Shown one piece after another: positions 26,609 to 36,891 of a stretch of DNA of 64,000 nt. A program made the translations under genes and the position numbers. A model generated the notes under the pieces. It saw nothing but the letters and a program-made list of their open reading frames with translations, was not told the origin of the DNA and searched no databases. This DNA comes from Myxococcota bacterium (lineage in GTDB: Bacteria; Myxococcota_C; UBA6777). The stretch spans positions 1 through 64,000 of the forward strand of contig JAKLKB010000020.1 of the NCBI GenBank assembly GCA_023150835.1, read 5' to 3'. Positions within the stretch are counted from its first letter, which is position 1; each line of letters opens with the position of its first letter.

Positions 26609-26827
26609 ACGCCCACAAGCCACTCCTAGCGCAAAGATCGTGGGGGTAGCGTTTGCGAAAAAACGATGGATAAAGCGTCGCTCTTGCGCGTCAACCTGCC
26701 TCGAAAGCAACCTTTGGGCAAGTCCGCCCGATAACTGTGAACGATGTCACAACAGATCGCCCACATCGCGCAAATGCCGATAAACACAACGCCGATGTGG
26801 CCCTACTATCCCGATGGAGAACGAACG

Positions 26828-28057
26828 ATGAAGATCGAACGCAAGCCACATCAACCCCCACAACCGACCCCAAGCAAAACCCCCGCAGCCAAACCCCCCG
26901 CCGCACAACCCGCCGAACAAAAAAGCGCTTTCCAAAGCAACGACAACCGCGCACAACAACGCGACAACTTGCTTGGAACCCAAAAACAACCGACCCAACA
27001 ACCTTTCTTCGAGCGTTTTCTTGAAGATCAAAATCGCCTCCCCAAACCCGGCGGTGAGATGACCACCATGCGCTATCCTTCCGACAACGAAGGCGGCGAA
27101 GTTCAGCCCGGAAAACCCGGTGGTGAGATGACCACCATGCGCTACCCCTCCGACAACGAAGGCGGCGAAGTTCAGCCCGGAAAACCCGGTGGTGAGATGA
27201 CCACCATGCGCTACCCCTCCGACAACGAAGGCGGCGAAGTTCAGCCCGGAAAACCCGGCGGAAATGAAGTCACCACCAAGCGCTATCCTTCCGATTCGGA
27301 AGGCATGGAAACCCCTGTCAAGCCCGGCGGAAATGAAGTCACCACCAAGCGCTATCCTTCCGATTCGGAAGGCATGGAAACTCCAGGGAAACCCGGTGGC
27401 GGCGAGATGACGACCATGCGCTATCCTTCTGACAACGAAGGCAGCGAAGTTCAGCCCGGAAACCCCGGTGGTGGCGGCATGACCACCATGCGCTATCCTT
27501 CCGACAACGAAGGCAGCGAAGTTCAGCCCGGAAACCCCGGTGGTGGCGGCATGACCACCATGCGCTATCCTTCCGACAACGAAGGTGCAGAAACACCGAT
27601 CCAGTCGGGTGGTCCGGGACGTGAAGCTGTGACGATGGCCTATCCCTCCGATGCTGAAGGTACAGAAACCCCCATCAAGCCCGGTGGTCCGGGACGCGAA
27701 GCTGTGACGATGGCCTATCCCTCCGATGCTGAAGGTGCAGAAACTCCCGTCAAGCCCGGTGGTCCGGGACGCGAAGCTGTGACGATGGCCTATCCCTCCG
27801 ATGCTGAAGGTGCAGAAACCCCTGTGAAACCGGGAGGTGGCGAGATGACCACCATGCGTTATCCTTCCGACAACGAAGGGAACGAAGTCCAACCCGGAAA
27901 CCCCGGAGGTGGCGAGATGACCACCATGCGTTATCCTTCCGACAACGAAGGCAGCGAAACAACAGAAAACACGGGTGCTGCGGGCGGTGCGAAACAAAAG
28001 AAAGCTCTCCCTGCATGGGAATTGTTGGCACAACTCGCAAGCAAAGACAAAACATGA
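26828..28057 (+). CDS. Multi-core microviridin/marinostatin-type graspetide precursor
   Basis: This is a ribosomal precursor peptide of 409 residues. Residues 1-58 are a Pro/Gln/Lys-rich leader extension. Residues 59-66 read PFFERFLE, one change from the microviridin leader helix PFFARFLE that recruits the ATP-grasp ligase. Thirteen tandem cores follow, spaced 22-25 residues apart: eight TTMRYPSDNEG, two TTKRYPSDSEG and three VTMAYPSDAEG, in the order AAA BB AAA CCC AA. Gly/Pro-rich linkers such as EVQPGKPGG join them, and a 34-residue C-terminal tail ends the protein. The conserved T..YPSD.E fits Thr-Asp and Ser-Glu ester rings as in microviridins and marinostatin, where the products inhibit serine proteases. 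No core has Lys at the microviridin lactam position (it is Arg or Ala), so only esters are expected. ATG 26828 has GGAG eight bases upstream; ATG 26744 has no site. Confidence 0.93.
   Translation: MKIERKPHQPPQPTPSKTPAAKPPAAQPAEQKSAFQSNDNRAQQRDNLLGTQKQPTQQPFFERFLEDQNRLPKPGGEMTTMRYPSDNEGGEVQPGKPGGEMTTMRYPSDNEGGEVQPGKPGGEMTTMRYPSDNEGGEVQPGKPGGNEVTTKRYPSDSEGMETPVKPGGNEVTTKRYPSDSEGMETPGKPGGGEMTTMRYPSDNEGSEVQPGNPGGGGMTTMRYPSDNEGSEVQPGNPGGGGMTTMRYPSDNEGAETPIQSGGPGREAVTMAYPSDAEGTETPIKPGGPGREAVTMAYPSDAEGAETPVKPGGPGREAVTMAYPSDAEGAETPVKPGGGEMTTMRYPSDNEGNEVQPGNPGGGEMTTMRYPSDNEGSETTENTGAAGGAKQKKALPAWELLAQLASKDKT
27050..27960 (+). repeat. Thirteen-unit core array of the graspetide precursor
   Basis: Tandem units of 66-75 bases (mostly 69-72) each encode one core plus linker. 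Units 1-3, 4-5, 6-8, 9-11 and 12-13 form blocks of near-identical DNA, which points to repeated unit and block duplication. The first core Thr codons start at 27062 and the last core ends at 27952. This is a coding array, not a CRISPR. Confidence 0.97.
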
Positions 28058-28104
28058 TCGATTGCGGATGAGCGGAGAGGATCGAGATTGGAGGGGAGAA
28101 CGCT

Positions 28105-29103
28105 TTGTCGAAGCCGCAAGTTCTTTTGATCACCCACACAAAAGATAACCAGAGCATCCCGATGGTCGAAGAAGCGATCCGACGGCGTGGAGGCGAGCCG
28201 ATCCGCCTCGATACGGATCGCTATCCGTTGGAGGTCAAGATCAACACCCGTTACGAAAACAGCGGTTGGTCGCAACGGCTGAAAACGCCGAACGGAGACA
28301 TCGATTTGACCCAGTTGACGGCGGTGTGGTATCGGCGTTTCTATGCAGGTCACGGTTTGCCCGAAACACTCGGAGATCTGTACGATCCTTCGATTCAAGA
28401 GTCACGAAGGACGTTGTGGGGGAGCATCGCCTCTTTGTCGTGTTTCCAACTCGATCCGCTGTCGAGTGTACGCCGCGCTGATCACAAAGAAGTCCAAACC
28501 CGCAAAGCGATCGAGCTTGGATTGGATATCCCTCGCAGCTTATTCACCAACGATCCAGACGAAGCCCGCGCATTTATCGAATCCATTGATGGACCCGTGA
28601 TCACCAAGATGCAACATCCGTTTGCCGTATACCGCCAAGGCATCGAGAATGTGGTATTTACAACGCGCATTCAGCCCGATGATCTAAGTGCATTGGAAGG
28701 ATTGCGTTTTTGCCCGATGATCTTCCAAGAAGAGATCGTCAAGACCTTGGATGTGCGTGTCACGATCGTCGGCAAGCAGATCTTTTCTGCTGCGGTCGAT
28801 GCGCAAACCAAAGCTGAGACGCAAGTGGACTGGCGTCGCGATGGCGTCGGGCTGATCCGCTCTTGGAAACCGTACACCCTGCCCGAAGATATCCCCCCCA
28901 AGCTCCTTGCGCTCCAAAATTTTTTGGGGCTGAATTATGGGGCCATCGACTTTGTTGTTTCTCCTGAGGGTCGCCACGCCTTCCTTGAGGTGAACGCAGT
29001 GGGTGAGTTCTTTTGGCTTGTTGATACCCCCGGCCTTCCGATCCCTGACGCGCTCGCTGACACGCTTTTGGGCCGCGTCGAACGTATCCCCGCCGTTGTT
29101 TAA
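28105..29103 (+). CDS. ATP-grasp graspetide ligase (MvdD/MdnC/MstB type)
   Basis: The 332-residue protein matches the ATP-grasp family that activates Asp/Glu side chains as acyl phosphates and joins them to Thr/Ser hydroxyls in precursor peptides. Visible landmarks are the N-terminal strand VLLITHTKDNQSIPMVEEAI and YRR after the first domain (substrate-binding part). The central RADHKEVQTRKAIELGLDIP and GPVITKM carry the ATP-site Lys, IFQEEIVKTLDVRVTIVG the metal/ATP strand, and GAIDFVV...HAFLEVNAVGEF the metal-binding Glu-x-Asn. TTG is the start, six bases after GGAGGGGAG. It follows the precursor by 47 bases, so the two are co-transcribed. Only one ligase is present, consistent with ester rings and no lactam. 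Confidence 0.93.
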   Translation: MSKPQVLLITHTKDNQSIPMVEEAIRRRGGEPIRLDTDRYPLEVKINTRYENSGWSQRLKTPNGDIDLTQLTAVWYRRFYAGHGLPETLGDLYDPSIQESRRTLWGSIASLSCFQLDPLSSVRRADHKEVQTRKAIELGLDIPRSLFTNDPDEARAFIESIDGPVITKMQHPFAVYRQGIENVVFTTRIQPDDLSALEGLRFCPMIFQEEIVKTLDVRVTIVGKQIFSAAVDAQTKAETQVDWRRDGVGLIRSWKPYTLPEDIPPKLLALQNFLGLNYGAIDFVVSPEGRHAFLEVNAVGEFFWLVDTPGLPIPDALADTLLGRVERIPAVV

Positions 29104-29372
29104 GTCCGACTGAACTTCTCTCCCTTAACTTCTCTTTAAGTCTTTTGCCCCCACCTAAACCACACCGAGCATGGCGTATGTTGGCCGAGTTGTGGCGTGC
29201 GGCCCCACACCCCGCAAGGGAGCTTTGGCCCCTTGACCTCGTATTATCGGGGTGTTCCGACGATTTTCAAACCAACGAAGAATCTGCTTGGAGTACCGCG
29301 AACACGAGCGTTTTTGTCAACGAGTTTCGCTTCTGTTTTCAAGCAAGTCTTCTTTTTTGTTCGGAGGCTCCG

Positions 29373-30932
29373 ATGTCTGCTCGACGTGCGTTATTTCAAA
29401 TGGTTTCTTGTGCCTTGTTTTTGTTGGTGAGTCCTTTTCTCGCGGGGTGCGGCAACACGCCGCTGTGCCAATCCGAAAAGGATTGCATGGGCGATCAATA
29501 CTGCTACCAAGGGACTTGCGCTCCGTTGTGCAAAAACAGCGGAGACTGCTTGGGCAACGATCAGTGCAATACAACATCCAGCCGTTGCGCCCCCAACGGC
29601 TCCATCGAAAAAGCCCCTTCAGAGCAAGCTCCCGCCGAACAAACCACCGCCGAGACATCCGAACAAGAAAACACCGCAGATGCCCATGACTCCGAGCCTA
29701 CGGCGGAAAACGATCAAGAAAAAGAAACCATCGCAGAGCCTCTTCCCGAAACAACGCAAGAATCGGCTCCAGAATCGCTTTGTGGGAACGGTCAAATCGA
29801 TGCAAACGAAGCATGCGATGGGACCAACTTTGGCGAAAAAACGTGCGAAAAGCTCGGATTTTCGGGAGGCTTGCTGAAGTGCAATGCTTGTGCAATCGAC
29901 ACATCGGCTTGCACCAAGACCAACACCTCGAACTTTGGGAAAACTTGTCCAAGCAGCGGATGTGGAAGCGGTCTTGTTTGTGTAAAATTCGATACAGACC
30001 TTTCGATCTGCACAGCTTACTGCGACGCCAACACCCCCTGCCCGACGCAACCGGCGGGGGCATCGTGTCGTTTTACGCTCGAAGGTAGCGGAAAAGAGAT
30101 CTGTGGGTGGGCCACAGAGTCAGGCGCTCCGCCCGTTTGCGGAAACAACCAAACCGATGCAGGCGAAGATTGCGATGGGAACTCGGTGTTTGCGACGTGC
30201 AAAGGTCTCGGTTATACAGGCGGAACACTCAAATGCGATGCTTCGTGCAAATACGATACATCCGCATGTAGCGGACAAACCCTCTGCACGAGCCTCCCTC
30301 CCCGCCACTGCACCGATCCAAGCTGCTCACAGATCATCGCTTTTACACCGACCGCTGATAACGGATACATCGCGCTTCACGGCAACACCTTTAGCTGGCT
30401 GCGCCGAGATGCAGTGACGTTCGTCAAATATGCCACCGCGATCGTCAGTTGCGTCTTCCCCAACACACCGCCCCTTGGACTTGGGGACATGAGTATGCAA
30501 AACGGCCAAACACCCGCCGAAAACGGCCAGCTACGCCACCCCCAAGGAACACACGTCTACGGAACCGATATCGATCTCGCCTACTATCAAACAAACACCG
30601 CGAACAACCATCTACGGGCCGTTTGCGAACACTACACCAACGGGCAAGATCAATATCACTGCGTCTCACAACCCACCCTGCTCGAACCCAAACGAACGGC
30701 CTTTTTCCTCGCAAACATCCTTGCTTCTGCAAGAGTCCGTGTCATCGGCGTCGATGGAAAAGTCGGTCCCAAGCTTTTAACTGCGATCGATGAGTTGGCG
30801 CGTGATGGCCTGATCTCACCTGCCGCCCAACAACGCTTCAAAAGCGGCACCGTGACGTGGGAGGAAACCGACACCAAACGCGGCTGGTTCTATTTCCACC
30901 ACCACCACACGCACATCAGCTTTACGCGCTAA
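29373..30932 (+). CDS. Cys-rich lipoprotein with LAS-type metallopeptidase domain
   Basis: The 519-residue lipoprotein (lipobox FLAGC) has Cys clusters, a Glu/Ala/Thr linker of about 80 residues and two CGN-x-Q-x-DA-x-E-x-CDG modules. A C-terminal domain ends the chain, with H-x6-D (HVYGTDID) and H-x-H (HTHISF) zinc-ligand motifs typical of LAS/MepA-type D,D-endopeptidases that cut peptidoglycan cross-links. ATG 29373 follows GGAGG; longer in-frame starts back to 29145 have no site and no signal peptide. It lies 270 bases after the ATP-grasp gene with its own likely promoter. A role in graspetide processing is unlikely but not excluded. The substrate is inferred from motifs only. Confidence 0.75.
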   Translation: MSARRALFQMVSCALFLLVSPFLAGCGNTPLCQSEKDCMGDQYCYQGTCAPLCKNSGDCLGNDQCNTTSSRCAPNGSIEKAPSEQAPAEQTTAETSEQENTADAHDSEPTAENDQEKETIAEPLPETTQESAPESLCGNGQIDANEACDGTNFGEKTCEKLGFSGGLLKCNACAIDTSACTKTNTSNFGKTCPSSGCGSGLVCVKFDTDLSICTAYCDANTPCPTQPAGASCRFTLEGSGKEICGWATESGAPPVCGNNQTDAGEDCDGNSVFATCKGLGYTGGTLKCDASCKYDTSACSGQTLCTSLPPRHCTDPSCSQIIAFTPTADNGYIALHGNTFSWLRRDAVTFVKYATAIVSCVFPNTPPLGLGDMSMQNGQTPAENGQLRHPQGTHVYGTDIDLAYYQTNTANNHLRAVCEHYTNGQDQYHCVSQPTLLEPKRTAFFLANILASARVRVIGVDGKVGPKLLTAIDELARDGLISPAAQQRFKSGTVTWEETDTKRGWFYFHHHHTHISFTR

Positions 30933-31323: not shown

Positions 31324-31713
31324 GAGCAAAGATCAGCCGCTGCAAGACTGAGCAAGGATTCATTGTTTTTGAAAGAGTGGGCGGAGCGGATCAAGCTAGA
31401 CGGATGGGGAGAGAAGAGAAGAAGGGCAAGGAGAACAGAGCAAGCGGAGCAAAAACCAGTCTTGACTTTCTGCGGGAGTCTTGGTAAGAGCGCTTGCGTT
31501 TACGGGCTTGGATGTTTTTTGCAAAAGAGACGGATCGCGCAAGCGCATCGGTTTCAGGGTGCGGAGCATCAAGGGAAGCCGAAAGAGTCCATGAAGAGAA
31601 GCGAATGTTCGACGGGCGAAAGATCGCCTGCCTTTTGGAAGCTCTGAAACCACGATCCGTTGGGGTGGATGGGCCAGAGCGATAGACAACACCAGCGATT
31701 GAGGAGAGTGCAG
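31324..31713. other. Non-coding region upstream of aclB
   Basis: About 390 bases hold no supported gene. They should carry the aclB promoter. TTGACT (31462-31467), a 17-base spacer and TAAGAG (31485-31490) is the best pair seen, but the -10 is poor. Confidence 0.4.
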
Positions 31714-32994
31714 ATGGCACGCAAAGGTATTCGTGAATACGACGCCAAGCGGATGTTGGCCACAGCCCTGACCGGTTACGATGGTCGGGTTGCCTTGGTG
31801 GGTCCCGGTGAAGATCTCAGAAAGAAAGCGGAAGAGTACCCTTGGTTGAAGACCGAGAAGCTGGTGGCGAAACCGGATCAACTTTTCGGAAAGCGCGGAA
31901 AGAACGGTCTGATCTGTTTGAACAAAGGTCTCGAAGAAACAGCGGCTTGGATCAACGAGCGCATGAACAAAGAAGTGACGCTGTTGAGCGGCGTGAAGGG
32001 CGTGTTGACGCACTTTATCGTGGAAGTGTTCACTCCGTTTGACGCGGATACACGCGAATATTACTTGTCTCTCGATCTGGATGTGAACGGCGATATCCTT
32101 CGCTTGTCCAATTCGGGCGGCATCGATGTGGAAGAGTACATGGGCGACGAGAACAAATTCGTCGAAGTGATGCTCAACGGTGACAAAGCCTTTGATCCCC
32201 AAGATGTCGATGCAGCGGTGAAAAAGCTGTTTCCTGCAAATCACCACGCTTCCGTGCATCGCTTTATCAAAGAAACCTACAGCCACTTTGTGGCGGGTGG
32301 TTACACGCTGTTGGAGATCAACCCCTTTGTGGTGTTGGGCGATGGTCGTGCGCAACCGCTCGATATGGTCGCGAAAGTGGACGACACCGCAGCGTTCGAG
32401 ACCCGCAAGATGTGGGGCGACAATCTGGAGTTTCCTGCTGCGTTCGGTGAACACCTGACGCCCGCCGAAGAATTCGTGCGCGAGTTGGACTCCAAGACAG
32501 GCGCATCGTTGAAACTGCGTATCCTGAACCCGAAAGGCCGTGTGTGGAACATGGTTGCGGGTGGTGGTGCATCGGTGATCTATGCGGACACCGTGTGCGA
32601 CTTGGGCTTTGCCAACGAGCTTGCGATGTATGGCGAATACTCGGGCAACCCCGACACCAACAACACCTACCTATACGCCAAGACGGTTCTTGAGCAGATG
32701 ACCGCAGAGAAAGATCCCCAAGGACGGCCCAAGTTCCTGCTTTTGGGCGGTGGTATCGCGAACTTTACGGACGTGGCCAAGACGTTTACGGGCATCATCA
32801 TGGCGATGCAAGAGTTGGCAGAAAAGATGAAAGAGGTCGATGTGCGCGTGTTTGTGCGTCGTGCAGGTCCCAACTACAAGGAAGGTCTCATCAAATTGAA
32901 GGCCGCCGGCCAGCGTTTGGGGATCCCCATCGAAGTGCATGGCCCTGAAACACACATGACTCAGATCGTGGCTGATGCGCTGTTGCGCAAATAA
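31714..32994 (+). CDS. aclB: ATP-citrate lyase, small (beta) subunit
   Basis: With AclA this enzyme cleaves citrate with ATP and CoA to acetyl-CoA and oxaloacetate. The 426-residue protein aligns from memory with the N-terminal half of eukaryotic ATP-citrate lyase and with green-sulfur-bacterial AclB: KPDQL..KRGK.GL, LEINP.VV..DG, DAK/DSKTGASLKL, NPKGRVW.MVAGGGASVIYADT, ANYGEYSG-like LAMYGEYSG and ETHMTQIV near the end. It has an ATP-grasp fold plus a CoA-ligase domain, like a succinyl-CoA synthetase beta subunit, but the NPKGR/GGGASV segment is specific to the lyase. ATG 31714 follows GAGGAG; an in-frame extension to 31660 is not supported. It is 62 bases before aclA. Confidence 0.95.
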   Translation: MARKGIREYDAKRMLATALTGYDGRVALVGPGEDLRKKAEEYPWLKTEKLVAKPDQLFGKRGKNGLICLNKGLEETAAWINERMNKEVTLLSGVKGVLTHFIVEVFTPFDADTREYYLSLDLDVNGDILRLSNSGGIDVEEYMGDENKFVEVMLNGDKAFDPQDVDAAVKKLFPANHHASVHRFIKETYSHFVAGGYTLLEINPFVVLGDGRAQPLDMVAKVDDTAAFETRKMWGDNLEFPAAFGEHLTPAEEFVRELDSKTGASLKLRILNPKGRVWNMVAGGGASVIYADTVCDLGFANELAMYGEYSGNPDTNNTYLYAKTVLEQMTAEKDPQGRPKFLLLGGGIANFTDVAKTFTGIIMAMQELAEKMKEVDVRVFVRRAGPNYKEGLIKLKAAGQRLGIPIEVHGPETHMTQIVADALLRK

Positions 32995-33056
32995 TGGCTG
33001 CGCTGCTTCGAAACGACACAGCGAATCGCAAATCGCGCACATAAGGGAGAAAACAG

Positions 33057-34901
33057 ATGAGCCGACCCAGTTACCAGCTCTTCGATAAAAATACCACCGC
33101 GCTGATCTACGGGATGCAGACCGCAGCGGTGCAACGTATGCTTGACTTTGACTTTGCTTGCCGTCGCGCCAAGCCCTCCGTTTCCGCGTTGATCAACCCG
33201 GGTAGCGAAGGCTACGAGAAGATCTTTTGGGGCACAAAAGAGATCCTTCTACCCGTGTTTCCTGATATCGCCTCGGCTGCCAAAGCCTGCCCTGAATCCG
33301 ATGTGTTGATCAACTTCGCCTCGTATCGTTCGGCCTATCCGACGACGCTCGAAGCGATGGCGATCCCCCAACTCCGCACGCTCGTGATCATCGCCGAAGG
33401 CGTTCCCGAGCGCCGCGCCCGTCATCTGCGCGGTCTCGCCCGTGAGAAGGGTATCAACATCATCGGTCCCGCGACCGTTGGTGGGATCAAAGCAGGTGTG
33501 TTCCGTATCGCCAACACGGGCGGAACCATCGAAAACATCGTCAGCTCCAAACTGCATCGCCCGGGTTCTGTGGGCTTTGTGTCCAAATCAGGCGGGATGT
33601 CCAACGAGTCCTACAACGTGATCGCCCAATGCACCGACGGCGTCAACGAAGGGATCGCGATCGGTGGCGATGCGTTCCCCTGTTCGACGTTGCTTGATCA
33701 CCTGCTGCGTTTCCAAGACAACCCTGACATCAAGATGATGGTGTGTCTCGGTGAAGTGGGCGGCGAAGAAGAATACCGTATCGCCGAGGCCATCGCGAGC
33801 GGACGCATCACCAAACCCGTTGTGGCATGGGTGACAGGAACCTCGCTCGAACACCTGCCCCAAGGCGTACAGTTCGGACACGCCGGCGCAAAAGCCGATG
33901 TCAAGCGCGAAACCGCACCCGCCAAAAACGAGGCACTGCGCAAAGCCGGTGCGATCGTTCCCGAGTCTTTCAACGACTACGGCAAAGCGATCAAAGACAC
34001 CTTCGACAAACTCGTTGCCGAAGGCAAACACACGCCGATCGCAGATGTCGAACCACAAAACGTCCCGATGGACTTCAAAAGCGCTGTGGCGCTCAAGATG
34101 GTTCGCCGTCCCACCAACTTCATCTGCACGATCACCGATGATGCGGGTGATGAACTCAACTACGCAGGCCACAAGATCAGCAAGGTGATCAGCGAAAACT
34201 ACAGCATCGGCGATGTCTTGTCGCTGTTGTGGTTCCGCGAGCGCCTTCCCAAGTGGGCCACCGACTTCTTGGAGATGGTGATCAAGTTGACTGCGGATCA
34301 CGGCCCCGCAGTATCGGGCGCACACAACGCGATCGTCACGGCTCGCGCAGGACGCGATCTGATGAGCGCGGTGGCGTCGGGTATCTTGACCATCGGTCCG
34401 CGTTTTGGGGGTGCTGTCGCAGGTGCCGCAGTGATGTTCAAAGATGCGTACGACCGCAAGCTCAATGCCGTCCAATTCATCGATGAAAAGAAAAAGCAAA
34501 ACGTCAACGTTCAAGGGATCGGCCACCGCATCAAGTCGCTGCGCAATCCCGACATGCGCGTTGTCTTGCTCAAAAAATATGCAGACGAACATTTCCCCCA
34601 ACATCCCCTGCTTGACTTTGCTCTCGAAGTCGAACAAGTGACGACACAGAAAAAAGATACCTTGATCCTCAACGTGGACGGTGCCATCGGCGTGTTGTGC
34701 GTCGATATGATGTACGCATGCGGCTTCTCCGAGCGTCGCGTGCAAGACGTTGTCGATGCAGGCGCACTCAACGGCTTGTTCTTGCTTGGCCGTACCATCG
34801 GCATGGTCGGTCACTTTATGGATCAACACCGCCTCAAAGCGCCGCTCTATCGCCATCCTTGGGACGATATCCTCTACGACTTGCCCGCAGACGCAGAATA
34901 A
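33057..34901 (+). CDS. aclA: ATP-citrate lyase, large (alpha) subunit
   Basis: The 614-residue protein corresponds to the C-terminal half of eukaryotic ATP-citrate lyase. It has a succinyl-CoA-synthetase-alpha-like domain with the phosphohistidine motif FGHAGA (H275) and a C-terminal citrate-synthase-like domain (DHGPAVSGAHN, GIGHRIKSLRNPDMRV, NVDGAIG). The length is normal for bacterial AclA. GGGAG precedes the ATG. It is in an operon with aclB, and a good intrinsic terminator follows at 34921. Split aclBA is a marker of the reductive TCA cycle but is also found where acetyl-CoA is made from citrate, and this window alone does not decide which. Confidence 0.96.
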   Translation: MSRPSYQLFDKNTTALIYGMQTAAVQRMLDFDFACRRAKPSVSALINPGSEGYEKIFWGTKEILLPVFPDIASAAKACPESDVLINFASYRSAYPTTLEAMAIPQLRTLVIIAEGVPERRARHLRGLAREKGINIIGPATVGGIKAGVFRIANTGGTIENIVSSKLHRPGSVGFVSKSGGMSNESYNVIAQCTDGVNEGIAIGGDAFPCSTLLDHLLRFQDNPDIKMMVCLGEVGGEEEYRIAEAIASGRITKPVVAWVTGTSLEHLPQGVQFGHAGAKADVKRETAPAKNEALRKAGAIVPESFNDYGKAIKDTFDKLVAEGKHTPIADVEPQNVPMDFKSAVALKMVRRPTNFICTITDDAGDELNYAGHKISKVISENYSIGDVLSLLWFRERLPKWATDFLEMVIKLTADHGPAVSGAHNAIVTARAGRDLMSAVASGILTIGPRFGGAVAGAAVMFKDAYDRKLNAVQFIDEKKKQNVNVQGIGHRIKSLRNPDMRVVLLKKYADEHFPQHPLLDFALEVEQVTTQKKDTLILNVDGAIGVLCVDMMYACGFSERRVQDVVDAGALNGLFLLGRTIGMVGHFMDQHRLKAPLYRHPWDDILYDLPADAE

Positions 34902-34920
34902 TCGTCGTTATCTTCTTTTA

Positions 34921-34957
34921 CAGCGCGCTCCGCTCGGGGCGCGCTGTTCTGCTTTTC
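34921..34957 (+). terminator. Intrinsic terminator after aclBA
   Basis: Stem CAGCGCGC/GCGCGCTG (34921-34946, inner pairs TCCG/CGGG) is followed by the T-rich TTCTGCTTTTC. It lies 20 bases after the aclA stop. Confidence 0.8.
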
Positions 34958-35151
34958 TCCCACAACATCGCTGCTTTTCGCACCCTTCGGATGTACACCA
35001 CCACGATACTTTTGCGAAAAGAGCGATCTTCAAAAAAATCAACAAGCGACACCCTAGAACAACATTCTATCCAACACACGATAGCGCCCGTCGCATCGAG
35101 TCAACGAGCCTCGATCGCTGACGACGGCCTGACAGTACAGAGGAGACGAGT

Positions 35152-36891
35152 ATGTCCCAAATCGATGTCTTGTATTTTCCCGGTGATGATCGTGCAGAAG
35201 ATGCCAGCGAAGTCGCCAAAGACGTTGCCAACGCTGCACTTGCGCGTGCCAACGAGATCGTGGGTTCGAGCCACAAGTTCAACTGGATCTCTGAGAACGA
35301 AGATCCCCGACTGACCGTGGGTTTGCGCCTGTGGTTGCGGTTGAAAAACCAATTTGACCTGCCCGTTCTCAACGAAAACGACGCACGCGATAAAGAAGTC
35401 CTCAACTTCATCTTGAAGTCCGATATCACGGACATTCAGGCCAAGTACCCCAAAGTTCAGGCGTCTGATCTGGCCTTCATCCGCGACGCGGCGCAATCGT
35501 TGTTGGACATGAACGTGTTGGTGCCTTCGGATGGCGTACTCGAAGCGTTGAATCGCGTGGGCTACTCCTACAAAGGCGCGACCGGCACGCTCTCTGGCAA
35601 AGGCACCCCCGCAAGCATCAACGTGTTTATTCGCCAAAAACTCGAATCCGACGCTTGTGTGCGCGATTTCAAAAACGTGGCCCCTCGCAAACACAAATCC
35701 GTGGATGTCGATATGGCCGTATTTGTGGGCTGTGAAGGCGTGACCTCCGAGTCTGAACACCTCGTCGGAACGGGCTACACCGACGCCAAGATCATCACCA
35801 AAAAATCGGCAGCGGTGATCCAAAAAGCCTTTGAATACGCCAAAGCCAAAGGCATCGACAAGGTCTATGTTGCGGAAAAAGGCAACATCTTGAAAGAGTC
35901 GGACAACGCCTTCATCGATCTGGCAAAAGCCGCAGAAGCCGAAACAGGCGTGAAGATGGAATACATCATCTTCGACAACTTCTTGCAACGCATCACCAAA
36001 AACCCCGATTGGTTCAAGGTGGTCGTCACTTCTCGCTTCAATGGCGAAGAGTTCTTGGTTCCCCTTGCCGTCGCCATGTTCAACGAAGTCGAACGCGAAG
36101 ATCTCGGAAAAGATGTGGGCGTCTTCTCCCGCTACGTCGGCAAAAACATCGACTACACCAAAACCAAGATCGACACCCGCTGCTATCGCCAAAACAACGA
36201 GTGTTTCTACATCGGCGAAGACAAACGAACCGAAACCGAATCCATCAACTTCCGCCGCATCACCCGCAAGATGTCCGAAAATATCATCCGCTACTCGCTC
36301 GATGATACGCTTGTGCGCGGTGCAAAACGCTTGTTCATCCTGTATTCACCGTACCTCGCAGGCGACAAGCTCTTCCTCCAAGTGGGCCGAGAGATCGCCC
36401 GCGAAGAAAAGTACAAATCCATCGATGTGGTGTTTATGACCATCGGCGACTACTGCTGGTACACCGTCCATCGCCCCGAATCGGTCGAAGGCGTGGTGGG
36501 AACCAACTTGACGATGGACTTTTTGACCGACGCAGAAGCCTCGAAGATCGGTGGGATCGGGATGATGCCCAGCTTCAATTACACCCTTGAGACGGGCATT
36601 ATGGTGTCCGAACCCGGCCACGGGACTGCTCCCGACCTCCAGCCCAACCAGATCAACCCCGGTGCTTCGATCTGGGCGATGGCTGCGTTGCTTGAGCGTA
36701 TGAGCGACGACCTCAGCGGTCGGATCACTCCCGACCAAAAGAAAACACTCGCCAAAGCCGCAGAACTCGTCTACAAAGCCACCACGCAATTCTACTCCGC
36801 AGGCCAAAACTTGACGGGTGATCTCGGCGGAACCGGCACCACCACAGGCGTCGGCGATGGCATCAAAACCATCCTCCATTCCCTCCAATAG
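35152..36891 (+). CDS. Isocitrate/isopropylmalate dehydrogenase-family protein with a large insertion
   Basis: The 579-residue protein has family landmarks: TPASINVFIRQKLE (substrate Ser-x-Asn and Arg), KKSAAVIQKAFEYAKAKGIDKVYVAEKGNI, DNFLQRITKNPDWFKVVVTSRFNGE, and the C-terminal GGIGMMPSFNY and EPGHGTAPDLQPNQINP nucleotide-binding segments. Unlike ordinary isocitrate dehydrogenases (about 400-420 residues) there are about 130 extra residues between the VVVTSRFNG segment, which lacks the metal Asp, and a second TNLTMDFLTDAEA segment at about 453-465, which has it. There is also an N-terminal extension of about 100 residues. It lies 250 bases after aclA, past a terminator, with its own AGAGGAG site. 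An isocitrate-forming or -oxidising role beside ATP-citrate lyase is plausible but unproven. Confidence 0.8.
   Translation: MSQIDVLYFPGDDRAEDASEVAKDVANAALARANEIVGSSHKFNWISENEDPRLTVGLRLWLRLKNQFDLPVLNENDARDKEVLNFILKSDITDIQAKYPKVQASDLAFIRDAAQSLLDMNVLVPSDGVLEALNRVGYSYKGATGTLSGKGTPASINVFIRQKLESDACVRDFKNVAPRKHKSVDVDMAVFVGCEGVTSESEHLVGTGYTDAKIITKKSAAVIQKAFEYAKAKGIDKVYVAEKGNILKESDNAFIDLAKAAEAETGVKMEYIIFDNFLQRITKNPDWFKVVVTSRFNGEEFLVPLAVAMFNEVEREDLGKDVGVFSRYVGKNIDYTKTKIDTRCYRQNNECFYIGEDKRTETESINFRRITRKMSENIIRYSLDDTLVRGAKRLFILYSPYLAGDKLFLQVGREIAREEKYKSIDVVFMTIGDYCWYTVHRPESVEGVVGTNLTMDFLTDAEASKIGGIGMMPSFNYTLETGIMVSEPGHGTAPDLQPNQINPGASIWAMAALLERMSDDLSGRITPDQKKTLAKAAELVYKATTQFYSAGQNLTGDLGGTGTTTGVGDGIKTILHSLQ

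Follow-up and report, generated by a model that had tools for sequence, protein, structure and literature searches.

A probable two-gene graspetide locus with thirteen microviridin/marinostatin-type cores in a Myxococcota bacterium

A 64,000-nucleotide stretch of DNA from a Myxococcota bacterium (contig JAKLKB010000020.1; the whole stretch is referred to as the window) encodes a precursor protein with 13 tandem TxxYPSDxE cores and, in operon-like order, one ATP-grasp ligase. We consider it likely that the pair is a two-gene graspetide locus of the microviridin/marinostatin type, whose cores would become bicyclic di-esters and whose product would act as a multivalent inhibitor, a chain being somewhat favoured. 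The locus is real and conserved, and it probably functions as a member of a graspetide family that is already well known, with its core number expanded and its machinery reduced.

The precursor, the ligase and their conservation

The precursor gene (26828–28057, plus strand) starts with ATG, is preceded by GGAG, and encodes 409 amino acids plus stop, arranged from N- to C-terminus as an N-terminal tag, a Pro-rich segment, a leader helix, 13 cores and a conserved tail. The protein matches NCBIfam model NF033738 (microviridin/marinostatin family; E = 3.6e-44, 149 bits, cut-off 26) and PF12559 (Inhibitor_I10; E = 1.1e-36). The NF033738 match begins at the leader helix PFFERFLE (27002–27025, plus strand; residues 59–66), the ligase recruitment motif, which was aligned with the MdnA leader in 5ig9, an alignment that is weak by itself.

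Three types of core are present, all on the plus strand. TMRYPSDNE occurs eight times, as cores 1 (27065–27091), 2 (27134–27160), 3 (27203–27229), 6 (27413–27439), 7 (27485–27511), 8 (27557–27583), 12 (27851–27877) and 13 (27923–27949); TKRYPSDSE occurs twice, as cores 4 (27275–27301) and 5 (27344–27370); and TMAYPSDAE occurs three times, as cores 9 (27632–27658), 10 (27707–27733) and 11 (27782–27808). The cores are spaced 23–25 residues apart, with Gly/Pro-rich linkers in between. A six-frame search of the whole window for TxxYPSDxE returned exactly 13 matches, all in the precursor, and 2000 shuffles of the precursor gave none. The first-pass annotation, which had proposed a multi-core microviridin/marinostatin precursor with a PFFERFLE leader helix and 13 tandem T-x-x-Y-P-S-D-x-E cores between Gly/Pro linkers, is borne out on each of these points, with 13/13 cores fitting TxxYPSDx(D/E).

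The last core is followed by a 35-residue C-terminal tail, GSETTENTGAAGGAKQKKALPAWELLAQLASKDKT (27950–28054, plus strand), which by eye is probably helical near its end. The segment LPAWELLAQLA was considered as a second leader helix and dropped, because the Arg of PFFERFLE and the majority of its positions are missing there. A promoter scan gave nothing exceeding chance. Antisense to the array lies an open frame of 428 amino acids (window 26747–28033, minus strand), which most likely arises from the codon usage of the repeats.

The ligase gene (28105–29103, plus strand; 332 amino acids, TTG start) lies downstream of the precursor across an intergenic gap of 47 bp, with a strong ribosome site, GGAGGGGAG, upstream of its start. 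It scores 408 bits against TIGR04184 (MvdD; E = 2.9e-122) and far lower, 271 bits, against TIGR04185 (MvdC). The earlier reading of an MvdD-type ATP-grasp gene 47 bases downstream is therefore right in position, ribosome site and type, but the score misses the 475-bit equivalog cut-off. The nearest solved structures are MdnC (E = 2.1e-83 to 5ig9, which we take to be the MdnC structure) and then CdnC (7mgv, E = 3.4e-79); at the level of sequence comparison, these matches settle the fold. The search against graspetide family models that the annotation had proposed thus returned NF033738 for the precursor and TIGR04184 for the ligase, with MdnC and CdnC as the closest structures.

A tree of 15 ligases places the MvdC/MdnB lactam type in a separate clade (100/99) that excludes the window ligase; by path the window ligase is nearest to the MvdD-type ligases of Arenicellales and Nostoc, in a tree that does not resolve the MvdD side or the deeper order. 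The motif GEFFWL is common to the window ligase, MdnC and CdnC, whereas GEWGML takes its place in MdnB and in the MvdC of Nostoc. No second MvdC- or MvdD-type ligase was found in the genome, where the one other distant ATP-grasp match is not MvdC.

Further downstream on the plus strand are a Cys-rich lipoprotein-like protein (window 29145–30932), of which the segment RHPQGTHVYGTDIDLAYY recalls murein endopeptidases and which has no Pfam match, and two genes for ATP-citrate-lyase subunits with an isocitrate/isopropylmalate-dehydrogenase-like gene after them (window 31660–36891). Genes at 41.7–43.3 kb of the window look by eye like an ABC-type system; they lie at a great distance and are not counted as part of the locus.

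In KLAP109, a sister genome of the same genus, the gene order is unchanged and the precursor has 12 cores (L004); the genome's record is labelled Myxococcota bacterium, which fits the myxobacterium-like host proposed at first pass. Both genes are under purifying selection. Ten orthologous cores (90 codons) differ between the two genomes by 20 synonymous and 0 nonsynonymous changes, and dN/dS is 0.033 for the ligase, 0.032 for the linkers and 0.056 for the leader region. The linking T, S, D and E, together with Y and P, are invariant in the 25 cores of the two genomes, and most of their codons vary. The C-terminal tail shows 15 synonymous and 2 nonsynonymous changes. The difference in length between 13 and 12 cores falls among the first three cores, and window units 2 and 3 are identical in DNA.

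The pair was not found beside the conserved upstream spermidine-synthase-like gene in three other family members, and a ligase match at E = 1e-60 or better occurs in 2/399 sampled Pseudomonadota genomes. A plasmid search with the precursor gave one weak match only. An Inhibitor_I10 search of 98 genomes gave no match anywhere, the window's own genome included, and so says nothing on absence. One of the three other family members encodes an MvdD-like ligase (L006:1486–2613, minus strand; 36% identical) beside an acetyltransferase-like gene, with no recognisable microviridin core nearby. A horizontal origin was considered, given the absence of the pair in those three family members, and set aside; no donor is named because the deeper branches of the ligase tree do not resolve.

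Predicted cross-links and comparison with known systems

The PFFERFLE helix would recruit the single MvdD/MdnC-like ligase, which is predicted to form Thr–Asp and Ser–Glu links in every TxxYPSDxE core. Two omega-esters would thus form per core, amounting to at most 26 dehydrations and no amide over the whole array, and every cyclised core would become an inhibitor loop that resembles a serine-protease substrate. A marinostatin-like pair of esters in each core is the best prediction because position 3 is never Lys (Arg in 10/13, Ala in 3/13, Lys in 0/13) and the genome has no MvdC-type ligase. In microviridin TxKYPSD cores, that Lys makes an amide through a second ligase (PMC5934393), and the loci whose cores have position-3 Lys, in an Arenicellales genome and in Nostoc UHCC 0870, carry two ligases. 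Both marks of a tricyclic microviridin, position-3 Lys and an MvdC/MdnB ligase, are missing at the window locus, in agreement with the bicyclic cores of the first-pass annotation.

Marinostatin has one core, its sequence includes TMRYPSD, and its last linking residue is Asp. Eight window cores share TMRYPSD, and the likeness would extend to two esters, a Met at P1 and no need of a lactam ligase; unlike marinostatin, the window array has 13 copies, with Glu at the last linking position. As P1 of marinostatin is Met (PMC9623506), P1 should by analogy be Met in 11 window cores and Lys in 2.

Modification of a multi-core chain by one enzyme has precedent in AMdnC, which distributively cyclises several cores on a single chain (PMC5934393). 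Two published observations weigh against the proposed mechanism. AMdnC has been tried on up to four cores (the three natural cores of AMdnA, and four in an engineered chain; PMC5934393), compared with 13 over about 300 residues here, and one bicyclic microviridin proved about 100-fold weaker against elastase and underwent hydrolysis (PMC11672978).

Class II microviridin precursors are reviewed as having up to five cores (PMC7823629, PMC13039773). The counts found here run from 4 on the Nostoc UHCC 0870 plasmid, through 12 and 13 in the sister genome and the window respectively, to 15 in the Arenicellales genome. Twelve to 13 cores surpass the five of the reviews, and the array deserves the notice given to it at first pass in that respect, but it is unusual rather than unique. 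We claim no priority for 12–15 cores; a survey from 2026, covering 21,584 predicted graspetides, mentions that other groups include long precursors with repeats (PMC13097080).

The window locus shares one leader, tandem TxxxPSD cores and an MdnC-type ligase with the class II microviridins (AMdnA/AMdnC of Anabaena PCC 7120 and the Nostoc UHCC 0870 plasmid locus). Several cores stand behind one leader, as in that class, but its C39 peptidase/transporter is missing among the neighbours. The Nostoc locus differs further in its position-3 Lys, second MvdC ligase, and peptidase-domain ABC transporter and HlyD gene. Chryseoviridin (CdnA3/CdnC) is also multi-core, with CdnC the second-best solved homologue of the window ligase, and lactam losses are known among its relatives (PMC8939145); however, Chryseobacterium loci have several precursor genes, whereas the window has one long array. 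The Arenicellales locus (L003:3430–7008) has the closest non-sister ligase (56%), a single leader helix and 15 cores. It differs in having MvdC- and MvdD-like ligases, position-3 Lys, variable linkers and an N-terminal extension of about 145 residues, and in lacking the MKIxxKP start described below.

A second multi-repeat precursor with a shared start

A second graspetide-like locus lies in the same genome (L026:5874–8879, contig C172 of genome G000, minus strand). Its precursor of 274 amino acids carries seven IMKxRADxPxP repeats (7x KxRAD) and is followed by an ATP-grasp gene, whose best NCBIfam model is TIGR04187 at 74 bits, far under the 350-bit cut-off, and then by a 2OG-Fe(II) oxygenase gene (PF13640). 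The survey reports corallotide (group 15) from Corallococcus only, with a KIVAD-type KxxxD motif (PMC13097080). By gene set and KxxxD motif as described there, the second locus appears to resemble corallotide, although no counterpart of the beta-lactamase CorD was recognised near it. Corallotide is a large multi-repeat Myxococcota graspetide that has been studied at full length; its core chemistry, a KxxxD lactam plus hydroxylation, is unrelated to that of the 13-core array.

The N-terminal MKIERKPHQPP of the 13-core precursor (26828–26860, plus strand) fits a pattern, MKIxxKPxxPP, that is common only to the two multi-repeat precursors. It has exactly two sites in the 7.56 Mb genome and no more at one mismatch, and in the sister genome it is found only in the two counterpart precursors. 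After Met, the two starts share 8/19 identities, which 0/20000 shuffles reach, for a likeness noticed after the fact. In the sister genome the second precursor is cut short by the end of its contig, and the accompanying ligase and oxygenase genes lie on a different one. Between the two genomes, dN/dS at the second locus is 0.023 for the N-terminal 65 residues of the precursor and 0.107 for the ATP-grasp gene.

Form and role of the product

The product is predicted to be a multivalent inhibitor, with a long chain somewhat likelier than 13 cut monomers. Cutting would not be required for activity, because modified MdnA inhibits elastase with its leader still attached (PMC11672978) and plesiocin potency climbs with motif number (PMC13097080). 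All eight linker Lys residues (8/8) precede Pro, and an Arg in three of the linkers offers a potential trypsin site. Lys-Pro linkers, poorly cut by trypsin, are weak evidence for an intact chain, as the repeats are not independent.

The strongest competitor, to which we give somewhat less than an even chance, is that an unlinked or housekeeping protease cuts the linkers and releases 13 small bicyclic peptides that resemble marinostatin and fall into three kinds (8+2+3). A GG stands ahead of each core, although its surroundings lack the hydrophobic/acidic, leader-type character expected of C39 sites, and the genome has one C39-domain membrane protein, unlinked, on contig C151. Class II precursors carry double-glycine sites with C39 transporters (PMC7823629, PMC13039773), and biosynthetic gene clusters often lack their protease (PMC13039773). 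Release of 13 monomers is nevertheless unproven because no protease or transporter was found among the neighbours of the locus, unlike the Nostoc locus with its peptidase-domain ABC transporter and HlyD gene. The linkers are also conserved almost as strictly as the ligase, beyond the needs of a plain spacer, although repeat exchange may contribute. The multivalent chain is slightly favoured over the monomers, a choice that rests on absences.

Corallotide is collagen-like, and by extension the cross-linked array might serve chiefly in structure or as matrix material rather than as an inhibitor; we hold this to be improbable. The corallotide-like precursor with the identical N-terminal tag pattern in the same genome and the richness of the linkers in Gly and Pro are compatible with such a role, as is the report that corallotide aggregates and, in the test used, was not antibacterial (PMC13097080). 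The cores are, however, textbook inhibitor loops, and the two predicted P1 types are maintained separately in both genomes.

We regard it as similarly unlikely that the ligase modifies part of the array only, with copy number drifting by unequal recombination and most cores being passengers. The differing copy numbers of the sister genomes and the DNA-level identity of units 2 and 3 would fit drift, but the lack of any nonsynonymous change across the 90 core codons argues against passengers. Tandem repeats are common in proteins, but an unmodified repeat protein merely resembling a graspetide is very hard to reconcile with the leader helix, the adjoining cognate ligase, the family scores and the conservation of both genes.

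Returning to the multivalent inhibitor chain, its chemistry is itself of a known kind, and the main interest lies in the multivalency and in the second precursor with the shared start. With 26 esters predicted, the array is a natural test of the reach of one distributive ATP-grasp ligase along a chain. It likewise tests whether a multi-core graspetide is a source of many separate peptides or already the finished multivalent inhibitor, and the 12-core sister genome and the 15-core, two-ligase Arenicellales locus offer matched comparisons. The occurrence of MKIxxKPxxPP in two chemically different precursors suggests that they share a step of export or maturation, one that the cited papers do not describe. 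As a speculation that we hold with considerable doubt, the genus may make two large, uncut, multivalent cross-linked proteins, a 13-fold bicyclic inhibitor and a 7-fold KxxAD corallotide-like protein, which would share MKIxxKPxxPP as a sorting or maturation tag and act together extracellularly. If so, graspetide chemistry in these bacteria would build protein-sized polyvalent material and not small peptides.
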